64,000 bases of DNA from Candidatus Nanosynbacter sp. HMT-352 (GTDB lineage Bacteria > Patescibacteriota > Saccharimonadia > Saccharimonadales > Saccharimonadaceae). Position 1 is the stretch's first letter. Each line of letters starts with the position of its first letter. The position numbers and the translations under genes are program-made. Location of the stretch: the NCBI RefSeq assembly GCF_022819365.1, contig NZ_CP089289.1, positions 372,001-436,000 of the forward strand, in the 5' to 3' direction. The notes beneath the pieces were generated by a model. It saw only the letters and a list, made by a program, of their open reading frames with translations, ran no database searches and was not told where the DNA came from. Shown one piece after another: positions 1,892-47,109 of this stretch.

Positions 1892-3094
1892 CTATTTCCT
1901 CAATCGAGACTTCATATCACGAATGGTATTCATATAGTAAAGAAAAGCGTCGTATGGCGAATCATACGGACTAAAATAAGCGTGGACATCGCCGTCGGTA
2001 AAATTCTTCGTTCCCATGTAATAGAAGTGGTCTGAAGTTTGCAATTTTCGCCAATCGCTAATTAAACCTTCGTCTTTGCTATTCAAGACCTCATCTTCAA
2101 GCTCATAAACATATCGCAAAGCTTCTTTCTGTAGGCTGTTTCCGTTCCAAGCCGTCAAATCCCGCTCGGCGTCCGCCCACGTTACCGGCGACGGCATACT
2201 TATTTCACCGGCAGGCGCATTCGCGTCCAGTGCTTCGCTAACGGTATAGAAAGTATTGCCATCAGCACTCAGCCATTTATCAACAAAGTTCTCAAAGAAG
2301 CCGAAAATCCCAGATTCCGCCCATTGATGTTCACCGAAAGTTTCATAGTCCATGAACAAGTTAAGTAGTGGCGCGTAACGGACAGAATCTTCCACCCACG
2401 TATTAAACTTGTCCGCAGTCAACGGCCATTCATTCCATTTTCGATCGCTAAACCTAAACGCCAAATCATCACTCAATCGATAATTCTTAAGTAGTAATCC
2501 AATCTTCTTCGTGCCTCTCGGGCGATATACATAATTCGGACTGCGCCAATTCAGAATCGGATCCCAGCCTTCAGCCAGCACACCCTTAAAACCATCCTGC
2601 TCAGCCCATTTTGCCAAGTCATCGCTATATGCCAATTCTGTATTTGCTAAAACTCGAGTTTCCGCACCAAAAATCTCGCGAATCTTCCAGCGATGAAGCT
2701 CAACTTGACGCTCGAATTCCTTGCGCGAATAGAAAAACGCCAGACTGTGATGATATGGACTTGATAAGATTTCTACTTGACCAGTTTTTACTAAGCGCTT
2801 GAAACTTTCCAAAACTTCAGGATTAAACCTTTCGGCTTGCTCTAAAAACGTTCCACTAAAACTCAGTGAAATCTTAAAATCAGGATATTTTTTCAATAAT
2901 TTTTCAAGTAAAGCATTCATCGGCAAATACGACTTTTCTGCAACTTTTTGGAATATTTTTTGATTGTCCTGATCTGGATTTTGACCGCCAGAGAAATAAT
3001 TATGCTTCCAAGCCACGTCAAATATACTATACTCGCGTATTCGCCACGGTTGGTGCACGTGTAGATATAAAACTATTCCTTTATTTTTATTCAT
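1892..3094 (-). CDS. Glycoside hydrolase family 57 (alpha-amylase-like)
   Basis: A 400-residue protein with the GH57 layout. LYLHVHQPWR at residues 9-18 is the family's first conserved region. NTELAYSD near 155 carries the likely catalytic glutamate, and LFMDYETFGEHQW near 250 the likely catalytic aspartate and the characteristic DYETFG stretch. GH57 enzymes cleave or transfer alpha-1,4-glucans by a retaining mechanism; no signal peptide is seen, so it should act in the cytoplasm. Its ATG overlaps the stop of the upstream glycosyltransferase by four bases (ATGA), so the two are translationally coupled. The pair probably makes and degrades an alpha-glucan; the exact substrate is unknown. Confidence 0.88.
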   Translation of the reverse strand: MNKNKGIVLYLHVHQPWRIREYSIFDVAWKHNYFSGGQNPDQDNQKIFQKVAEKSYLPMNALLEKLLKKYPDFKISLSFSGTFLEQAERFNPEVLESFKRLVKTGQVEILSSPYHHSLAFFYSRKEFERQVELHRWKIREIFGAETRVLANTELAYSDDLAKWAEQDGFKGVLAEGWDPILNWRSPNYVYRPRGTKKIGLLLKNYRLSDDLAFRFSDRKWNEWPLTADKFNTWVEDSVRYAPLLNLFMDYETFGEHQWAESGIFGFFENFVDKWLSADGNTFYTVSEALDANAPAGEISMPSPVTWADAERDLTAWNGNSLQKEALRYVYELEDEVLNSKDEGLISDWRKLQTSDHFYYMGTKNFTDGDVHAYFSPYDSPYDAFLYYMNTIRDMKSRLRK

Positions 3095-13962: not shown

Positions 13963-13991
13963 TTGTTTTTCGTTGTCATTTCTGCTACAAT
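13963..13991 (+). promoter_or_regulatory. Promoter of rplJL
   Basis: TTGTTT (13963-13968), 17-base spacer, TACAAT (13986-13991) preceded by TG: an extended -10 promoter that places the transcription start at about 13998, just before the L10 leader. Confidence 0.6.
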
Positions 13992-14004
13992 AGTCTGGAA
14001 CATT

Positions 14005-14125
14005 ACCAAAGACAGTGGCGACTTGACGTAAAACAAGTGTAAAAATGCCACCGAGGGATGAAACTAACAGTTTTATTTGACGTCTTTGGTAGTGCGAGAA
14101 TCAAAGACGTTTTTTGATTCTCCAT
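14005..14125 (+). promoter_or_regulatory. L10 leader with competing intrinsic terminator
   Basis: The leader forms a closing stem ACCAAAGAC (14005-14013) with GTCTTTGGT (14082-14090), an inner stem GTGGC/GCCAC (14015-14019, 14047-14051) followed by CCGAGGGATGAA, and a small hairpin AAACT/AGTTT, matching the known L10(L12)4-binding leader. The 3' arm of the closing stem is shared with a terminator hairpin ACGTCTTTG / CAAAGACGT (14080-14088, 14102-14110) followed by six T residues. The two folds exclude each other, so free L10-L12 complex bound to the leader could change the balance and set rplJL expression. Confidence 0.85.
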
Positions 14126-42097: not shown

Positions 42098-45000
42098 ATG
42101 GATTTCAATGCTCGTTACGCTAAATTAAACGATAATCAACGACAAGCAGTCGACTACATTCACGGATCACTTTTGGTAATTGCTGGGCCAGGAACGGGGA
42201 AAACCGAGCTTCTAAGTATGCGCACCGCCCAAATCCTGAAACAGACCGACACTTTACCGAACAGTATTTTGTGTCTAACGTTTACTGAAAGCGGCGCCAC
42301 AAATATGCGCCAACGACTCCGCCAGATTATTGGTGAAGATGCGTATAAAATTGCGATTCATACATTCCACAGCTTCGGCACAGAAATCATCAATCAGCAC
42401 CGCGAGTATTTTTTCCGTGGCGCCGACGCTCAGCCAGTTGACGAATTGACGCAATATCAAATTATCTCTGGAATACTTGAAGGACTTGATTGGCGAAATC
42501 CGTTAAGCGCGAAAAACAACGGGGAATTTGTTTATATTAAAGACCTCATCCGCATTATTTCCGAGTTCAAGCAAAGCGGCTTAACGCCGTCAGAATTACG
42601 GGCAATTATTGAGGACAATCAAAGCACAATCGCCGAAATCGCGCCAGATATTCAGCAAGTATTTTCCGCCAAAATATCGAAAAAGACAATCGAGTTGTTC
42701 GCGCCGATAGCTGAGAAAATTGCCAATTTAGCCGCCAAAAATCCTGACGAGAAAAACTCAAAATTGCCAGCCTCAATCACGCCATACGCCAACGTTTTAG
42801 CGCTGAGCATCGTGCACGCCACCCAGGAAGCAATTGACGAAAACTCAACCAAGCCACTGACTGCTTGGAAAAATAAATGGTGCGAAAAAAATGCCAATGG
42901 CGAATTTGTCCTGAAAGATTTTACCGCCGCAGAAAAATTATTCGCCGCAATTGACGTTTACGAAAAATACGTAAATATTTTATCCGAGCGCTCGTTATTT
43001 GATTATGACGATATGATTTTATCCGTTATTCAAGCCTGCGAATCCCATCCAGAACTGCGCGCAAATCTCCAAGAGCAATTCCAATTCATCATGGTCGACG
43101 AGTTCCAGGACACGAACTTGGCGCAATTACGATTATTGTTCAATTTGACCAGCGAGAACGACGACAATCCAAACATCATGGCGGTCGGCGATGACGACCA
43201 AGCAATCTTCAGCTTCCAGGGCGCAGACGTGGGCAACATCCAGCGTTTCCGCCAACATTATAACGATCCAAAAATCATCGTTTTGACCGACAATTATCGT
43301 TCCGCCGAAAACATTTTATCGTCAGCACGGAACGTCATCACTCAAGGCGCGGATCGATTGGAAAACACAATTGATGGGCTATCAAAACAATTGACCGCAC
43401 ATGCAAATAGCGAAGGCTCAAAAGTCGAAATCCAAGAATTCTCATCTGTTAGCGAAGAGCGAGCGGGAATTGCCAAACAAATTGCCGAGCTGATAAAAAA
43501 CGGCGAGAAACCAGAAAACATCACGATTATTGCGCGCCACCATAAAGAACTCATTGAAATTCTTCCGCATCTTTATAAAGAAAATCTTTTTGTCAATTAC
43601 GAGCGTCACGACGATATTTTGGAGCAAGATATAATTCAGATTCTGGACAAATTAGCGCGAACTGTCGTGGCGATTAGCCAGAATAATTTGGACGTCGCTA
43701 ATAGTTTATTGCCGGAAATTACGGCTCATCCAGCATTTGGATTTTCTGCACTGGACATCTGGAAATTGAGCCTTCAAGCTTACAAAAATCGGCAATTGCG
43801 GCTGGAAAGTATGTTGGCGAATAGCGTATTTAAGGAATTTGCGGAGTGGCTTTTGGAACGCGCTAAAGACGTACCGAATCTGCCATTGGAAGAGCAATTG
43901 GACAATTTATTAGGCTTAACTAACGATGAAAGCGGCGATCTTCCGGTCAATTCTCTCGCCAATTTCTATTTCTCGCCAGAAAAGCTAGATAAAAACCCAG
44001 AAGCATATCTGACAATTCTGGAAAGTTTGCGCACTTTGCGCCAAAAACTTCGCGATCGAATCACCGATAAAAACCCAACTCTGGAAGATTTTTTGGAATT
44101 TATTGACCTACATATTTCAACAAAAACTCGCTTGACACAAATCCGTACACAAGCAAGCTCACTCAGCGGCGCCATAAATTTGATGACCGCTCATAAATCC
44201 AAAGGTTTGGAATTCCCGCACGTTTTCGTGATTGGGGCAATTGACAGCGCTTGGGGCGAAAAAGTTCGTTCACGTAGCCGAGCTATCCGATATCCCGCAA
44301 ACCTCCAACTTCAGCCAGCGGGCGCCACTTACGACGAACGACTTCGGCTGTTTTTCGTAGCGATGACTCGCGCCAAAACCACATTGACCATGACTTATTC
44401 TCAAACCAACGATTCTGGCAGCGACACGATAATCGCCAGTTTCTTGACGAATTGCACGCCAACCACCATTCCGACCAGCGATAATCCAGCTGAACAAATT
44501 GAACTCGCTGAAACCGACTGGACGACGCGGCTAACTTCGCCGATTATTCCAGAATTAAAGGATTTATTGGCGCCAGCGCTCGAAACATACAAGCTTTCCG
44601 CAACGCATTTGAACAACTTCCTCGACGTTTCACGTGGCGGGCCGCAGAATTTCTTATTGAACAATTTGCTGCATTTTCCATCCGCCAAAAATTCCGCCGC
44701 AGCTTACGGAACCGCGATTCACAGCAGCCTTCAGCAAGCACATTGCTCATTCAGCGCCGATCATCAATTGCCAAGCACCGAACAAATCCTCCAATTCTTC
44801 CAAAAATCCCTCGAGAGTCAGCATTTGCCAGCGGACGATTTTCAATTGTACTTGGATAAAGGGAAGTCGGCTTTGACTGCGTTCTTAAACGCCAAATCTT
44901 CAGATTTTCACGACACGGACTTGGCGGAATTAGACTTTTCAAATCAAGGCGTAATTATAGATAGCGCCAGATTGACTGGTAAACTTGACGTCGTTGATAT

Positions 45001-45394
45001 TGATAAACAGAATAAAACCATCTTCGTAACAGATTATAAAACTGGCAAGCCGTCGCATTCTTGGAAAGGTTCGGCCGATTACGAGAAAATCAAACTTCAT
45101 AAATATCGTCAGCAATTGATGTTCTATCAGCTGCTGGTCGAGTATTCGCGCGATTATGGCAATTTCACGTTTACTGGCGGGCGATTACAATTTGTCGAAC
45201 CAGACATGAAAACCGGCGATATTCTTAGCTTGGAAGACACGTTCTCCAGAGAAGAATTGTCCGAATTCGCGAAACTCGTAAACATCATTTGGCGAAAAAT
45301 AACCACATTAGACCTGCCGTATATTTCTGACTATTCGGCGGATTATAAGGGAATGTTGCAATTCGAAAAAGACCTGCTGGCGGGCGAAATATAA
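42098..45394 (+). CDS. UvrD/Rep-type helicase fused to RecB-like nuclease
   Basis: 1098 residues. SF1A helicase: Walker A IAGPGTGKTELL near 30, TFTESGATNMRQRL, Walker B MVDEFQDTNLAQ near 330, GDDDQAIFSFQGA, TDNYRSAENI, LMTAHKSKGLEFPHVFV and the FVAMTRAKTTL motif VI. The C-terminus (about 840-1090) has the PD-(D/E)xK nuclease: AYGTAIHSSLQQA, GKLDVVDI and DYKTGKPSH. Such fusions process broken DNA ends like AddAB/RecBCD in one chain. TAAAAT ends six bases before the ATG. Confidence 0.93.
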   Translation: MDFNARYAKLNDNQRQAVDYIHGSLLVIAGPGTGKTELLSMRTAQILKQTDTLPNSILCLTFTESGATNMRQRLRQIIGEDAYKIAIHTFHSFGTEIINQHREYFFRGADAQPVDELTQYQIISGILEGLDWRNPLSAKNNGEFVYIKDLIRIISEFKQSGLTPSELRAIIEDNQSTIAEIAPDIQQVFSAKISKKTIELFAPIAEKIANLAAKNPDEKNSKLPASITPYANVLALSIVHATQEAIDENSTKPLTAWKNKWCEKNANGEFVLKDFTAAEKLFAAIDVYEKYVNILSERSLFDYDDMILSVIQACESHPELRANLQEQFQFIMVDEFQDTNLAQLRLLFNLTSENDDNPNIMAVGDDDQAIFSFQGADVGNIQRFRQHYNDPKIIVLTDNYRSAENILSSARNVITQGADRLENTIDGLSKQLTAHANSEGSKVEIQEFSSVSEERAGIAKQIAELIKNGEKPENITIIARHHKELIEILPHLYKENLFVNYERHDDILEQDIIQILDKLARTVVAISQNNLDVANSLLPEITAHPAFGFSALDIWKLSLQAYKNRQLRLESMLANSVFKEFAEWLLERAKDVPNLPLEEQLDNLLGLTNDESGDLPVNSLANFYFSPEKLDKNPEAYLTILESLRTLRQKLRDRITDKNPTLEDFLEFIDLHISTKTRLTQIRTQASSLSGAINLMTAHKSKGLEFPHVFVIGAIDSAWGEKVRSRSRAIRYPANLQLQPAGATYDERLRLFFVAMTRAKTTLTMTYSQTNDSGSDTIIASFLTNCTPTTIPTSDNPAEQIELAETDWTTRLTSPIIPELKDLLAPALETYKLSATHLNNFLDVSRGGPQNFLLNNLLHFPSAKNSAAAYGTAIHSSLQQAHCSFSADHQLPSTEQILQFFQKSLESQHLPADDFQLYLDKGKSALTAFLNAKSSDFHDTDLAELDFSNQGVIIDSARLTGKLDVVDIDKQNKTIFVTDYKTGKPSHSWKGSADYEKIKLHKYRQQLMFYQLLVEYSRDYGNFTFTGGRLQFVEPDMKTGDILSLEDTFSREELSEFAKLVNIIWRKITTLDLPYISDYSADYKGMLQFEKDLLAGEI

Positions 45395-45589
45395 AAATAT
45401 TCTGGTATATTGTTGCATTTTTTTATAATTAGTGTTATTATAATAAACGCTTTATTGATAAAGCAGCTCTCGACTTGACACCATAAATAGTGTCAAGTCC
45501 TGACCATGCTTCGCACAAAAGCATGGTCTGAAAGATGGTTAGAGCACTTGCCTATAGCCGATACTTCGGCGGGGAGGGGGTGAAAACCC

Positions 45590-45766
45590 TTGGCTGGAAA
45601 CCAAACTGACGCACGCCGCCGCGCGCAGCAGGACTACGAGTCCGCTGTCAGAAACGGCGCCGAAAAGTCCACTCTGGACCGTCTGTACGCGACGGTTCTG
45701 GACAAGCAGGCCGCGGAAAACGCAGCCACCGGTCAGAGCGACCGTCCCAGGAAGCTCCACTGGTAG
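45590..45766 (+). CDS. Small GC-rich ORF with TTG start
   Basis: 58 residues from a TTG with a very strong RBS (GGGGAGGGGGTG) eight bases upstream: MAGNQTDARRRAQQDYESAV and a helical, basic remainder ending PRKLHW. GC-rich codons (CGC, CTG, GTC, GCC) unlike the AT-leaning neighbours point to foreign origin. No family recognised. No ATG in frame, which lowers confidence. Confidence 0.45.
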   Translation: MAGNQTDARRRAQQDYESAVRNGAEKSTLDRLYATVLDKQAAENAATGQSDRPRKLHW

Positions 45767-45884
45767 TCTTTTTCTTTGGCAGTCGGGGCTTGTGCGACCC
45801 CGAAACCGCTGACTCCGCGTCAGCAGAGGGCGTCTGTCCGCCCTCGGCTTGATTCGCCGACCGGTAATCCGGAAAAGAATCAAA

Positions 45885-45970
45885 GGACATGATTCTGGAA
45901 AAATCCCGCCGCTTTGTTGTGAAAATGGAGTAGCGGTTGATAAGTGGGTTCGACTCCCTCCATGTCCGCC
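45885..45970 (+). other. tRNA/tmRNA-like end pairing within the island
   Basis: GGACATG (45885-45891) followed by ATTCTGGA, as at the 5' end of tmRNA, pairs perfectly with CATGTCC (45961-45967), which is preceded by a T-arm-like GTGGGTTCGACTCCCTC (one mismatch) and followed by GCCG rather than CCA. The interior is only about 50 bases, with CCGCT/AGCGG. No normal anticodon arm or tag frame fits. It may be a shrunken tmRNA or an integration scar in a tRNA/tmRNA gene. Confidence 0.4.
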
Positions 45971-46094
45971 GGGAAGCAAGACAACGGTGTTTTGCTTCCC
46001 TCCCATTCTTGGGCTCGCGAGATTCGTTCGTCGCAGATTCTTCTCTCAAAGATGAGATTAGAAACTCCGAACAGAACCGCTTGAGCCCGCCCAC

Positions 46095-46132
46095 ACCCTA
46101 TCTCGATGATGAGATAGGGTTTTCTCCTTTTT
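46095..46132 (+). terminator. Strong intrinsic terminator closing the island
   Basis: ACCCTATCTC / GAGATAGGGT perfect 10-bp stem with a six-base loop, followed by TTTCTCCTTTTT. Confidence 0.9.
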
Positions 46133-46149
46133 GTGATAAAATAACAGAA

Positions 46150-47109
46150 ATGACATCGTTTTGGAATGATTTACCACAGCCATTTTTTATATTGGCACCA
46201 ATGGAAGCCGTCACCGACGTCGTGTTTCGTCATGTCGTGAAACAGGCTGGCGCGCCAGATATATTTTTCACCGAGTTCGCAAATGCCACCGGCTGGGTTC
46301 ACGCTGGCGACAAAGCTATAGCTGGGCGACTAATTAAAACCGACGATGAGCAGCCGCTTATTGCGCAAATCTGGGGTGGCGAGCCAGGGGATATGGAAGC
46401 TTTCGCTAAGCACTGCGCGGAACTTGGCTTTAACGGAATTGATATCAATATGGGATGTCCCGCCAAATCTGCCATTAAAAGCGGTGGCGCAGCTCTGATT
46501 CGTCGACCTGACATAGCGATAGCTGCAATTGAAGCCGCCAAAAAATCTGGATTGCCAGTTAGTGTAAAAACTCGGCTGGGCTATACTTATGTCGATGAAT
46601 GGCGAGAGTGGCTGACGACAATTCTCAAACAAGACATCGTGAATTTGACGATTCATCTGCGCACCAAAAAAGAGATGAGTAAAGTTGCGGCGCATTACGA
46701 ATTGATTGACGAGATTATTAAGCTGCGCGATGAAATTGCCCCACAAACGCTCCTGACTATCAACGGCGACATTCGCGACCGAGAGCATGGGCTGGAAATT
46801 GCCAGAAAACATCCCGGCGTGAATGGAATTATGATTGGGCGAGGCGTTTTCAGTGATCCGTTTTGCTTCCGCGAGTCGAAGGTCAACATAGATAATCATA
46901 AAGAAGAACTGTTGACACTTCTTAATTATCACTTGGATTTGTTTGATTCTTATCAGCCGATTTTAGGGCGACCTTTTGAAACCCTAAAACGTTTTTTCAA
47001 GATTTATATTCGCGATTTTGACGGCGCAAAGGAGCTTCGGGAGAAATTGATGCACACCACGACGACAGACGAAGTCCGCCTAGCTATTGCAAATATACAT
47101 GATTTATGA
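46150..47109 (+). CDS. dus: tRNA-dihydrouridine synthase
   Basis: 319 residues from ATG 46150; an in-frame extension into the structured island upstream (to 45937) is spurious. FMN-binding TIM barrel with LAPMEAVTDVVFR, FTEFANATG, QIWGGEPGDM, DINMGCPAKSAIKSGGAAL (catalytic Cys), VSVKTRLGY, NGDIRD and IMIGRGVFSDPF. Reduces U to D in the tRNA D-loop. TAAAAT ends seven bases before the ATG (leaderless). Confidence 0.95.
   Translation: MTSFWNDLPQPFFILAPMEAVTDVVFRHVVKQAGAPDIFFTEFANATGWVHAGDKAIAGRLIKTDDEQPLIAQIWGGEPGDMEAFAKHCAELGFNGIDINMGCPAKSAIKSGGAALIRRPDIAIAAIEAAKKSGLPVSVKTRLGYTYVDEWREWLTTILKQDIVNLTIHLRTKKEMSKVAAHYELIDEIIKLRDEIAPQTLLTINGDIRDREHGLEIARKHPGVNGIMIGRGVFSDPFCFRESKVNIDNHKEELLTLLNYHLDLFDSYQPILGRPFETLKRFFKIYIRDFDGAKELREKLMHTTTTDEVRLAIANIHDL

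Follow-up and report, generated by a model that had tools for sequence, protein, structure and literature searches.

The window, meaning the whole 64,000-nucleotide stretch of DNA analysed here, carries at positions 45395-46149 an island that lies between a UvrD/AddA-like helicase gene (uvrD), with its stop at 45394, and dus, which starts at 46150. ATP synthase-like frames were seen by eye farther out than either gene. The features of the island and its two neighbours are listed below in window coordinates.

42098..45394, + strand: UvrD/AddA-like helicase with a PD-(D/E)XK nuclease domain (Pfam), upstream neighbour outside the unit
45400..45453, + strand: promoter-like, AT-rich island start, 54 of 54 positions identical in the relative L002
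45472..45499, + strand: 5' hairpin 1, perfect 10 bp, GACTTGACAC/GTGTCAAGTC, read directly
45502..45528, + strand: 5' hairpin 2, perfect 10 bp, GACCATGCTT/AAGCATGGTC, read directly
45573..45577, + strand: Shine-Dalgarno sequence GGAGG, read directly
45590..45766, + strand: 58-aa microprotein gene (family here named AGNQ), TTG start, TAG stop, from homologues, alignment and fold prediction
45784..45802, + strand: core hairpin H1, two of five pairs changing on both sides, 76.7% of cells paired, out of register in L004 and L008
45808..45824, + strand: core hairpin H2, GCTGAC/GTCAGC, one pair with changes on both sides
45828..45843, + strand: core hairpin H3, GGGCG/CGCCC, one pair with changes on both sides
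45844..45882, + strand: predicted H-type pseudoknot, stem a TCGGC/GCCGA, stem b TGATTC/GAATCA, inner hairpin CCGG/CCGG, A4 linker
45885..45967, + strand: tRNA-like structure, 7-bp acceptor GGACATG/CATGTCC, T-arm with TTCGACT loop, four of five T-stem pairs, abnormal lower half
45968..45969, + strand: G73-C74 after the acceptor stem, CCA not encoded (G-CCG)
45971..46000, + strand: hairpin 3' of the tRNA-like structure
46011..46088, + strand: 3' block closed by GGGCTC/GAGCCC, with conserved GCGAGATTC and CAGA(A/G)CC-GCTT (six loci)
46095..46132, + strand: intrinsic terminator, hairpin with T-run (terminator scan)
46150..47109, + strand: dus, tRNA-dihydrouridine synthase (Pfam PF01207), downstream neighbour and flank

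The original prediction of a structured GC-rich island of about 700 bp was borne out. GC content was 0.576 at 45500-45999 against 0.386 at 45000-45499 and 0.490 at 46000-46499, and the 673-nt island strand folded with a z of -7.16, with 0 of 20 shuffles equally stable. Single pieces folded alone stood out less from shuffles than the whole strand (5' hairpins at 45460-45540, z -4.85; 3' block, z -3.12; core, z -2.50, 3 of 200 shuffles equally good; tRNA-like structure, z -1.90, 9 of 200 equally good). The two hairpins, small ORF, three tandem hairpins, tRNA/tmRNA-like pair and terminator that had been described were all present in their places, and what had been seen merely as an ORF is a conserved protein gene. 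The claim that these elements stand behind a single promoter was not confirmed: a strict sigma-70 consensus scan returned 0 promoter sites, though the stretch at 45400-45453 is identical in L002. Across islands, promoter-like pairs directly followed uvrD in 51 of 80 compared to 19 of 80 control stretches. The terminator scan gave 2 sites, with a shuffle average of 1.0.

The AGNQ microprotein has 35 homologous clusters by profile search, with homologues aligning along its length, and is predicted to form a helical hairpin (pLDDT 87.7). A second island microprotein family comprises 92 clusters and is predicted to fold into a three-helix bundle (pLDDT 93.5), and other islands carry Cys-rich zinc-finger-like or different short proteins, with unrelated families occupying one slot. 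Codon differences were mostly at the third position in all five comparable frame pairs (e.g., 18/13/37). A Foldseek search of the PDB with both predicted microproteins gave no match at E <= 0.001, and Pfam, NCBIfam, PHROGs and PADLOC gave no assignable family for the selected microproteins; the Cys-rich ones showed weak similarity to the DnaJ zinc finger (E 0.014 and 0.13). Three microproteins tried against defence models gave no match, phage families gave nothing beyond an Rz-like match (E 0.031), and a search for viral contigs with a microprotein returned 32 pattern stretches, of which 0 were confirmed. Eight of the ten closest AGNQ homologues lie on database contigs of 607-847 nt, roughly the length of an island, which fits either an abundant transcript or assemblies interrupted by islands that vary between strains.

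The two microprotein profile families matched 13 and 4 of 198 genomes, once each, and 16 of these 17 matches lay no more than 0.9 kb upstream of dus and on the same strand as dus. The profiles were built from island members and nine of the 17 matches are training members; among the non-training matches, seven of eight occupied the dus-upstream slot. In a phylum-wide sample the second family was detected in 2 of 379 genomes, both previously found in this analysis.

Comparison of the uvrD-dus locus started from a dus search in which the best 80 of 438 relatives were taken as loci, with more added from genomes: dus was found at E <= 1e-60 in 182 of 198 family genomes and 80 regions were added, 79 of them upstream of dus. 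From the resulting 221 records, 14 without dus and 33 without uvrD were set aside, and the remaining 174 gave 90 distinct uvrD-dus junctions, all from Saccharibacteria-type records, some titled only 'bacterium' or 'Patescibacteria'. Islands of 245-2336 nt were present at 80 of the 90 junctions, and the other ten have uvrD and dus almost adjoining, -1 to 63 nt apart. GC content was higher in the island than in the adjacent uvrD in 75 of 79 cases. The layout is kept at one locus in many Saccharibacteria. Whole-island blastn within the genus gave matches in 4 of 9 genomes.

The hallmarks of the island were strand-specific. Sense-strand tRNA-like structures were detected in 30 of 80 islands compared to 0 of 80 reverse complements, 0 of 72 equal-length uvrD flanks and 0.4 in shuffled sequence. 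Frames of 36-70 aa with a Shine-Dalgarno match of at least 6 were found in 35 of 80 islands (2 of 80 reverse, 1.7 shuffled), and with a match of at least 8 in 24 islands (0 reverse, 0.3 shuffled). At least one hallmark (tRNA-like structure, closing helix or microprotein frame) was present in 60 of 80 islands, and the 20 without any include L001, which has a microprotein by profile, and L012, which has a tRNA-like structure by ARAGORN. A covarying 13-bp long-range helix, GACAG.../...CTGTC, connects the two ends of some islands; its compensated versions include GACAGAGATAGTG, GACAGGAATAGTG, GACAGGCACAGTG and GACAGAAATGATG among others. This closing helix scored at least 10 in 29 of 81 units; a null that paired 5' and 3' parts from different loci averaged 4.5 such units and never exceeded 8. 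The search was designed after the motif had been seen and is not an unbiased test. A general complementarity scan of the first against the last parts of 56 islands gave a weak signal (4 at < 0.01, 7 at < 0.05). A search of the window for the GACAG closing helix found it absent; the window's clade has the hairpin core and pseudoknot instead.

In an alignment of six hand-chosen loci the window's core covaries, with 94% of cells paired compared to 27-48% in slid controls. Seven pairs show changes on both sides, a value reached by 1 of 500 shuffles; pair types, one of five measures, were not above shuffles (395 of 500 reach the value). The core model matched only 5 of 198 genomes, all training members. 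The pseudoknot ends 2 nt before the tRNA-like structure, and in a scan in which the tRNA-like starts of L001 and L011 were set by hand, a pseudoknot lay directly 5' of the tRNA-like structure at p <= 0.05 against shuffles in 12 of 40 cases. Eight of nine window-clade loci reached this level, the exception being L004 (p 0.079), and L100 is a tenth case by eye, for which the scan scored none. The nine window-clade pseudoknots, which were hand-marked, have fully complementary stems and an A-rich linker (AAAA or longer) throughout; about four a-stems and three b-stems are truly different, the raw count of 8 distinct a-stems including trimmed variants. The combined pseudoknot and tRNA-like module is limited to about ten window-clade loci plus L036, L064 and L142.

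The tRNA-like structure in the window is contiguous over 83 nt and was not called by ARAGORN. Under a strict definition (7 of 7 acceptor pairs) 39 tRNA-like structures were found in the 30 islands, the other 50 of 80 islands having none. C74 was present in 39 of 39, a purine at position 73 in 33 and C75 in 7; a looser scan gave 51 structures, 45 of them with C74. CCA was encoded in 4 of the 39, the window's copy not among them, and in 3 of 3 tRNAs in the window. Run on 57 loci, ARAGORN called 24 genes upstream of dus; it named an anticodon for 21 of them, 10 of these starting with A, and gave no triplet for the other 3. Anticodons starting with A are rare in bacterial tRNAs. A few single copies look ordinary (e.g., Pro GGG, Phe GAA), but the island tRNA-likes mostly do not look like decoders. 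A functional elongator tRNA was rejected for the window copy, which has neither a decoding cloverleaf call nor an encoded CCA. In L112 and L038 (5508-5634) the anticodon arm of the tRNA-like structure has grown to a hairpin tens of nucleotides long, and L021 (5438-5814) has three tRNA-like genes and long hairpins in one island in which the scans gave no microprotein frame.

The protein frame is less alike between close species than the RNA around it. Between the window, L001 and L002 the 3' part of uvrD is 93-94% and dus 89-94% alike, compared to only 62-74% for the islands. Aligning L001 with L002, 129 of the first 150 columns agree, followed by 77 of 200 across the protein-frame columns (151-350), 49 of 50 in the first core block, 36 of 50 in the next block (which holds an insertion), 32 of 50 in the tRNA-like block and 175 in the last 200 columns. 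Because the frame columns diverge where the surrounding RNA columns agree, we conclude that close species have swapped the protein frame within an RNA that is otherwise largely kept. The unit may also travel. The sole exception among the 17 microprotein matches was G017, in which uvrD and dus nearly abut (L016) and the whole unit, closing helix included, lies at another site (L201, contig 23, ~2152-2860, minus strand), which suggests the locus can move as a whole. By eye, the L201 unit adjoins a sigma-factor-like frame.

Layout, protein, covariation, frame exchange and the slot placement of the protein families are supported by these sequence comparisons, and they likewise support reading the island as what appears to be an independent structured protein-coding transcript, a conserved chassis with exchangeable cargo. 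The original prediction of a new large non-coding RNA stands in its first part, given the covariation, the conserved layout and the lack of an Rfam family, but not as non-coding, as the island encodes a conserved and confidently folding microprotein.

We propose, and give it an even chance of being right, that the island is a structured mRNA on which RNase P, acting at a tRNA mimic, generates the 3' end. The pseudoknot would then seal this end, in convergence with MALAT1. The transcript would consist of the 5' hairpins, the ribosome-binding site and the 58-aa helical protein, followed by a 3' untranslated region in which the covarying core ending in the H-type pseudoknot is succeeded by the tRNA-like structure, further stems and the terminator. 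RNase P reads the acceptor stem and T-arm of its substrate, and it is because the acceptor stem, T-arm, R73 and C74 are kept in the tRNA-likes that we favour this enzyme. It would recognise the stacked acceptor and T-arm with R73-C74 and cut at 45884/45885, after which the A-rich pseudoknot would lie close to the freshly made 3' end and could hinder exonucleases. The microprotein might, more speculatively, bind its own or another RNA and so form a fast-evolving ribonucleoprotein. RNase P RNA was above the cut-off in 8 of 8 genomes tested. Pairing between the substrate RCC and RNase P RNA has been described (PMC12710915). With C74 kept but not C75, this contact is incomplete, and the role of C74 could instead lie in trimming of the 3' end and addition of CCA, which might then allow the tRNA-likes to be charged.

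Precedents for such a 3' end exist outside and inside bacteria. MALAT1 and NEAT1 obtain their 3' ends through RNase P and a triple helix, a route described as unique to these two among lncRNAs (PMC12941219). The island shares with them a stable tertiary element (here predicted) directly 5' of a tRNA-like structure, the T-arm side of which is conserved while the anticodon side varies. We claim no homology: MALAT1 and NEAT1 are animal lncRNAs processed by RNase P and RNase Z with a triple helix at the new 3' end, whereas the island is bacterial, would be a microprotein mRNA with a putative cleavage, and has a predicted H-type pseudoknot with an A-rich linker. RNase P also cuts some bacterial mRNAs and transient riboswitch structures, according to a review (PMC11143913); the island differs from these sites in that the presumed cleavage would fall in a dedicated covarying module and set the 3' end of a one-gene message. 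Should the processing model be correct, RNase P would here generate the 3' end of a bacterial mRNA by acting on a tRNA mimic, with a tertiary element as the seal.

A possible but rather unlikely alternative is that the final product of the locus is its RNA, as a large ornate RNA or RNP particle of the GOLLD/ROOL type in which the tRNA folds are structural and the microprotein is a dedicated partner. The island is likewise several hundred nt long and highly structured with tRNA folds near or within it, and the 13-bp closing helix in 29 of 81 units, with its several compensated versions, and the anticodon arms extended to long hairpins (e.g., L038, L112) speak for it. Against this, Rfam at the gathering score gave no match in the window's island or in 10 relatives, strong ribosome-binding sites and conserved proteins argue for an mRNA role too, and the closing helix was not found in the window. 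Identity with GOLLD, ROOL or OLE itself was rejected as no Rfam model matched in the window or the 10 relatives, and for GOLLD and ROOL the context is also wrong: they belong to phages or prophages (PMC12286853), whereas the island has chromosomal housekeeping neighbours and a search of phage relatives with it gave no match.

It is also conceivable, though we doubt it, that the microprotein acts against a host, rival or phage as an effector or immunity factor, with the RNA serving only as a stability and translation device and the exchange of frames reflecting an arms race. Unrelated protein families in one slot and a frame replaced between close species in which uvrD is still 93% alike would fit such a history; however, no defence model matched the three microproteins tried, the phage side offered only the Rz-like match, and the constraint on RNA structure seems beyond what a stability device needs. 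A type III toxin-antitoxin system was rejected: in such systems a toxin gene is preceded by tandem RNA repeats that form pseudoknots, and the island has no direct repeats and its pseudoknot lies downstream of the frame.

Combining these strands into one picture, in which a chassis transcript carries swapped, unrelated RNA-binding microproteins, acquires an RNase P/pseudoknot 3' end in the oral clade and acts as a hypervariable RNP for epibiont-host-phage recognition, would define a gene class not described before, and we consider it improbable as a whole. Nothing on the locus turned up among the papers listed in a search of mostly open-access literature with few preprints; the broad queries, which matched tens of thousands of papers, weigh little here. 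Despite their very small genomes, Saccharibacteria reserve 0.25-2.3 kb at 80 of 90 junctions for a locus unnamed in the databases tried. A swappable protein slot in a conserved RNA chassis could be used to track diversity at the strain level, and it is a testable candidate for a part in interactions of the epibiont with its host or with phage.

A second, tmRNA-like ribosome-rescue RNA is very improbable. It would bring mRNA-like and tRNA-like parts together in one RNA, the tRNA-like ends resemble those of tmRNA (RF00023), and among four sub-threshold matches in a relaxed Rfam scan of the island the best by E-value was a partial tmRNA (13.3 bits against a cut-off of 47, E 0.0038). The acceptor pair G3.U70, the alanine identity element of tRNA-Ala and tmRNA, occurs in the tRNA-likes of L004 (5764-5831) and L008 (4521-4646). 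The window's copy, in contrast, has A3-U70 and G-CCG where tmRNA has G3.U70 and a CCA end, 35 of 39 tRNA-likes encode no CCA, and the frame lies upstream of and outside the tRNA-like structure with its own start and stop, whereas the tag frame of tmRNA sits between the tRNA-like halves. The island is not the genome's canonical tmRNA either, as a tmRNA over the cut-off was present elsewhere in 12 of 12 relatives tested.

That the island is a regulatory 3' region of uvrD or a leader of dus is suggested by its constant position between the two genes, but a terminator precedes dus, the island is absent at 10 of 90 junctions and G017 has the whole unit elsewhere while its uvrD and dus nearly abut, which leaves this reading highly unlikely. 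The integrated, decaying element of the original prediction, or a remnant of a tRNA array, would account for variable content, GC richness relative to the surroundings, tRNA-like pieces and the 20 of 80 islands without scanned hallmarks, but is scarcely credible given the conserved order, strand-specific hallmarks, covariation with compensatory changes and protein-level constraint seen in intact frames with third-position bias, and an integrated origin found no backing in the phage search (no match), the plasmid search (20 short weak matches of 32-51 nt, judged chance) or the viral contigs (none confirmed).

Two minor observations concern known RNAs. In the 3' block (window 46017-46082) the conserved GCGAGATTC and CAGAACCGCTT are similar to the AGAU...ACAGAACCCGGCUUA segments found in RNase P RNA (L226 alignment); homology of the block to RNase P RNA was rejected, as Rfam gives no support and the likeness may be chance. 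Elsewhere in the window an ordinary ribosomal protein L10 leader (RF00557) lies at 13988-14124.
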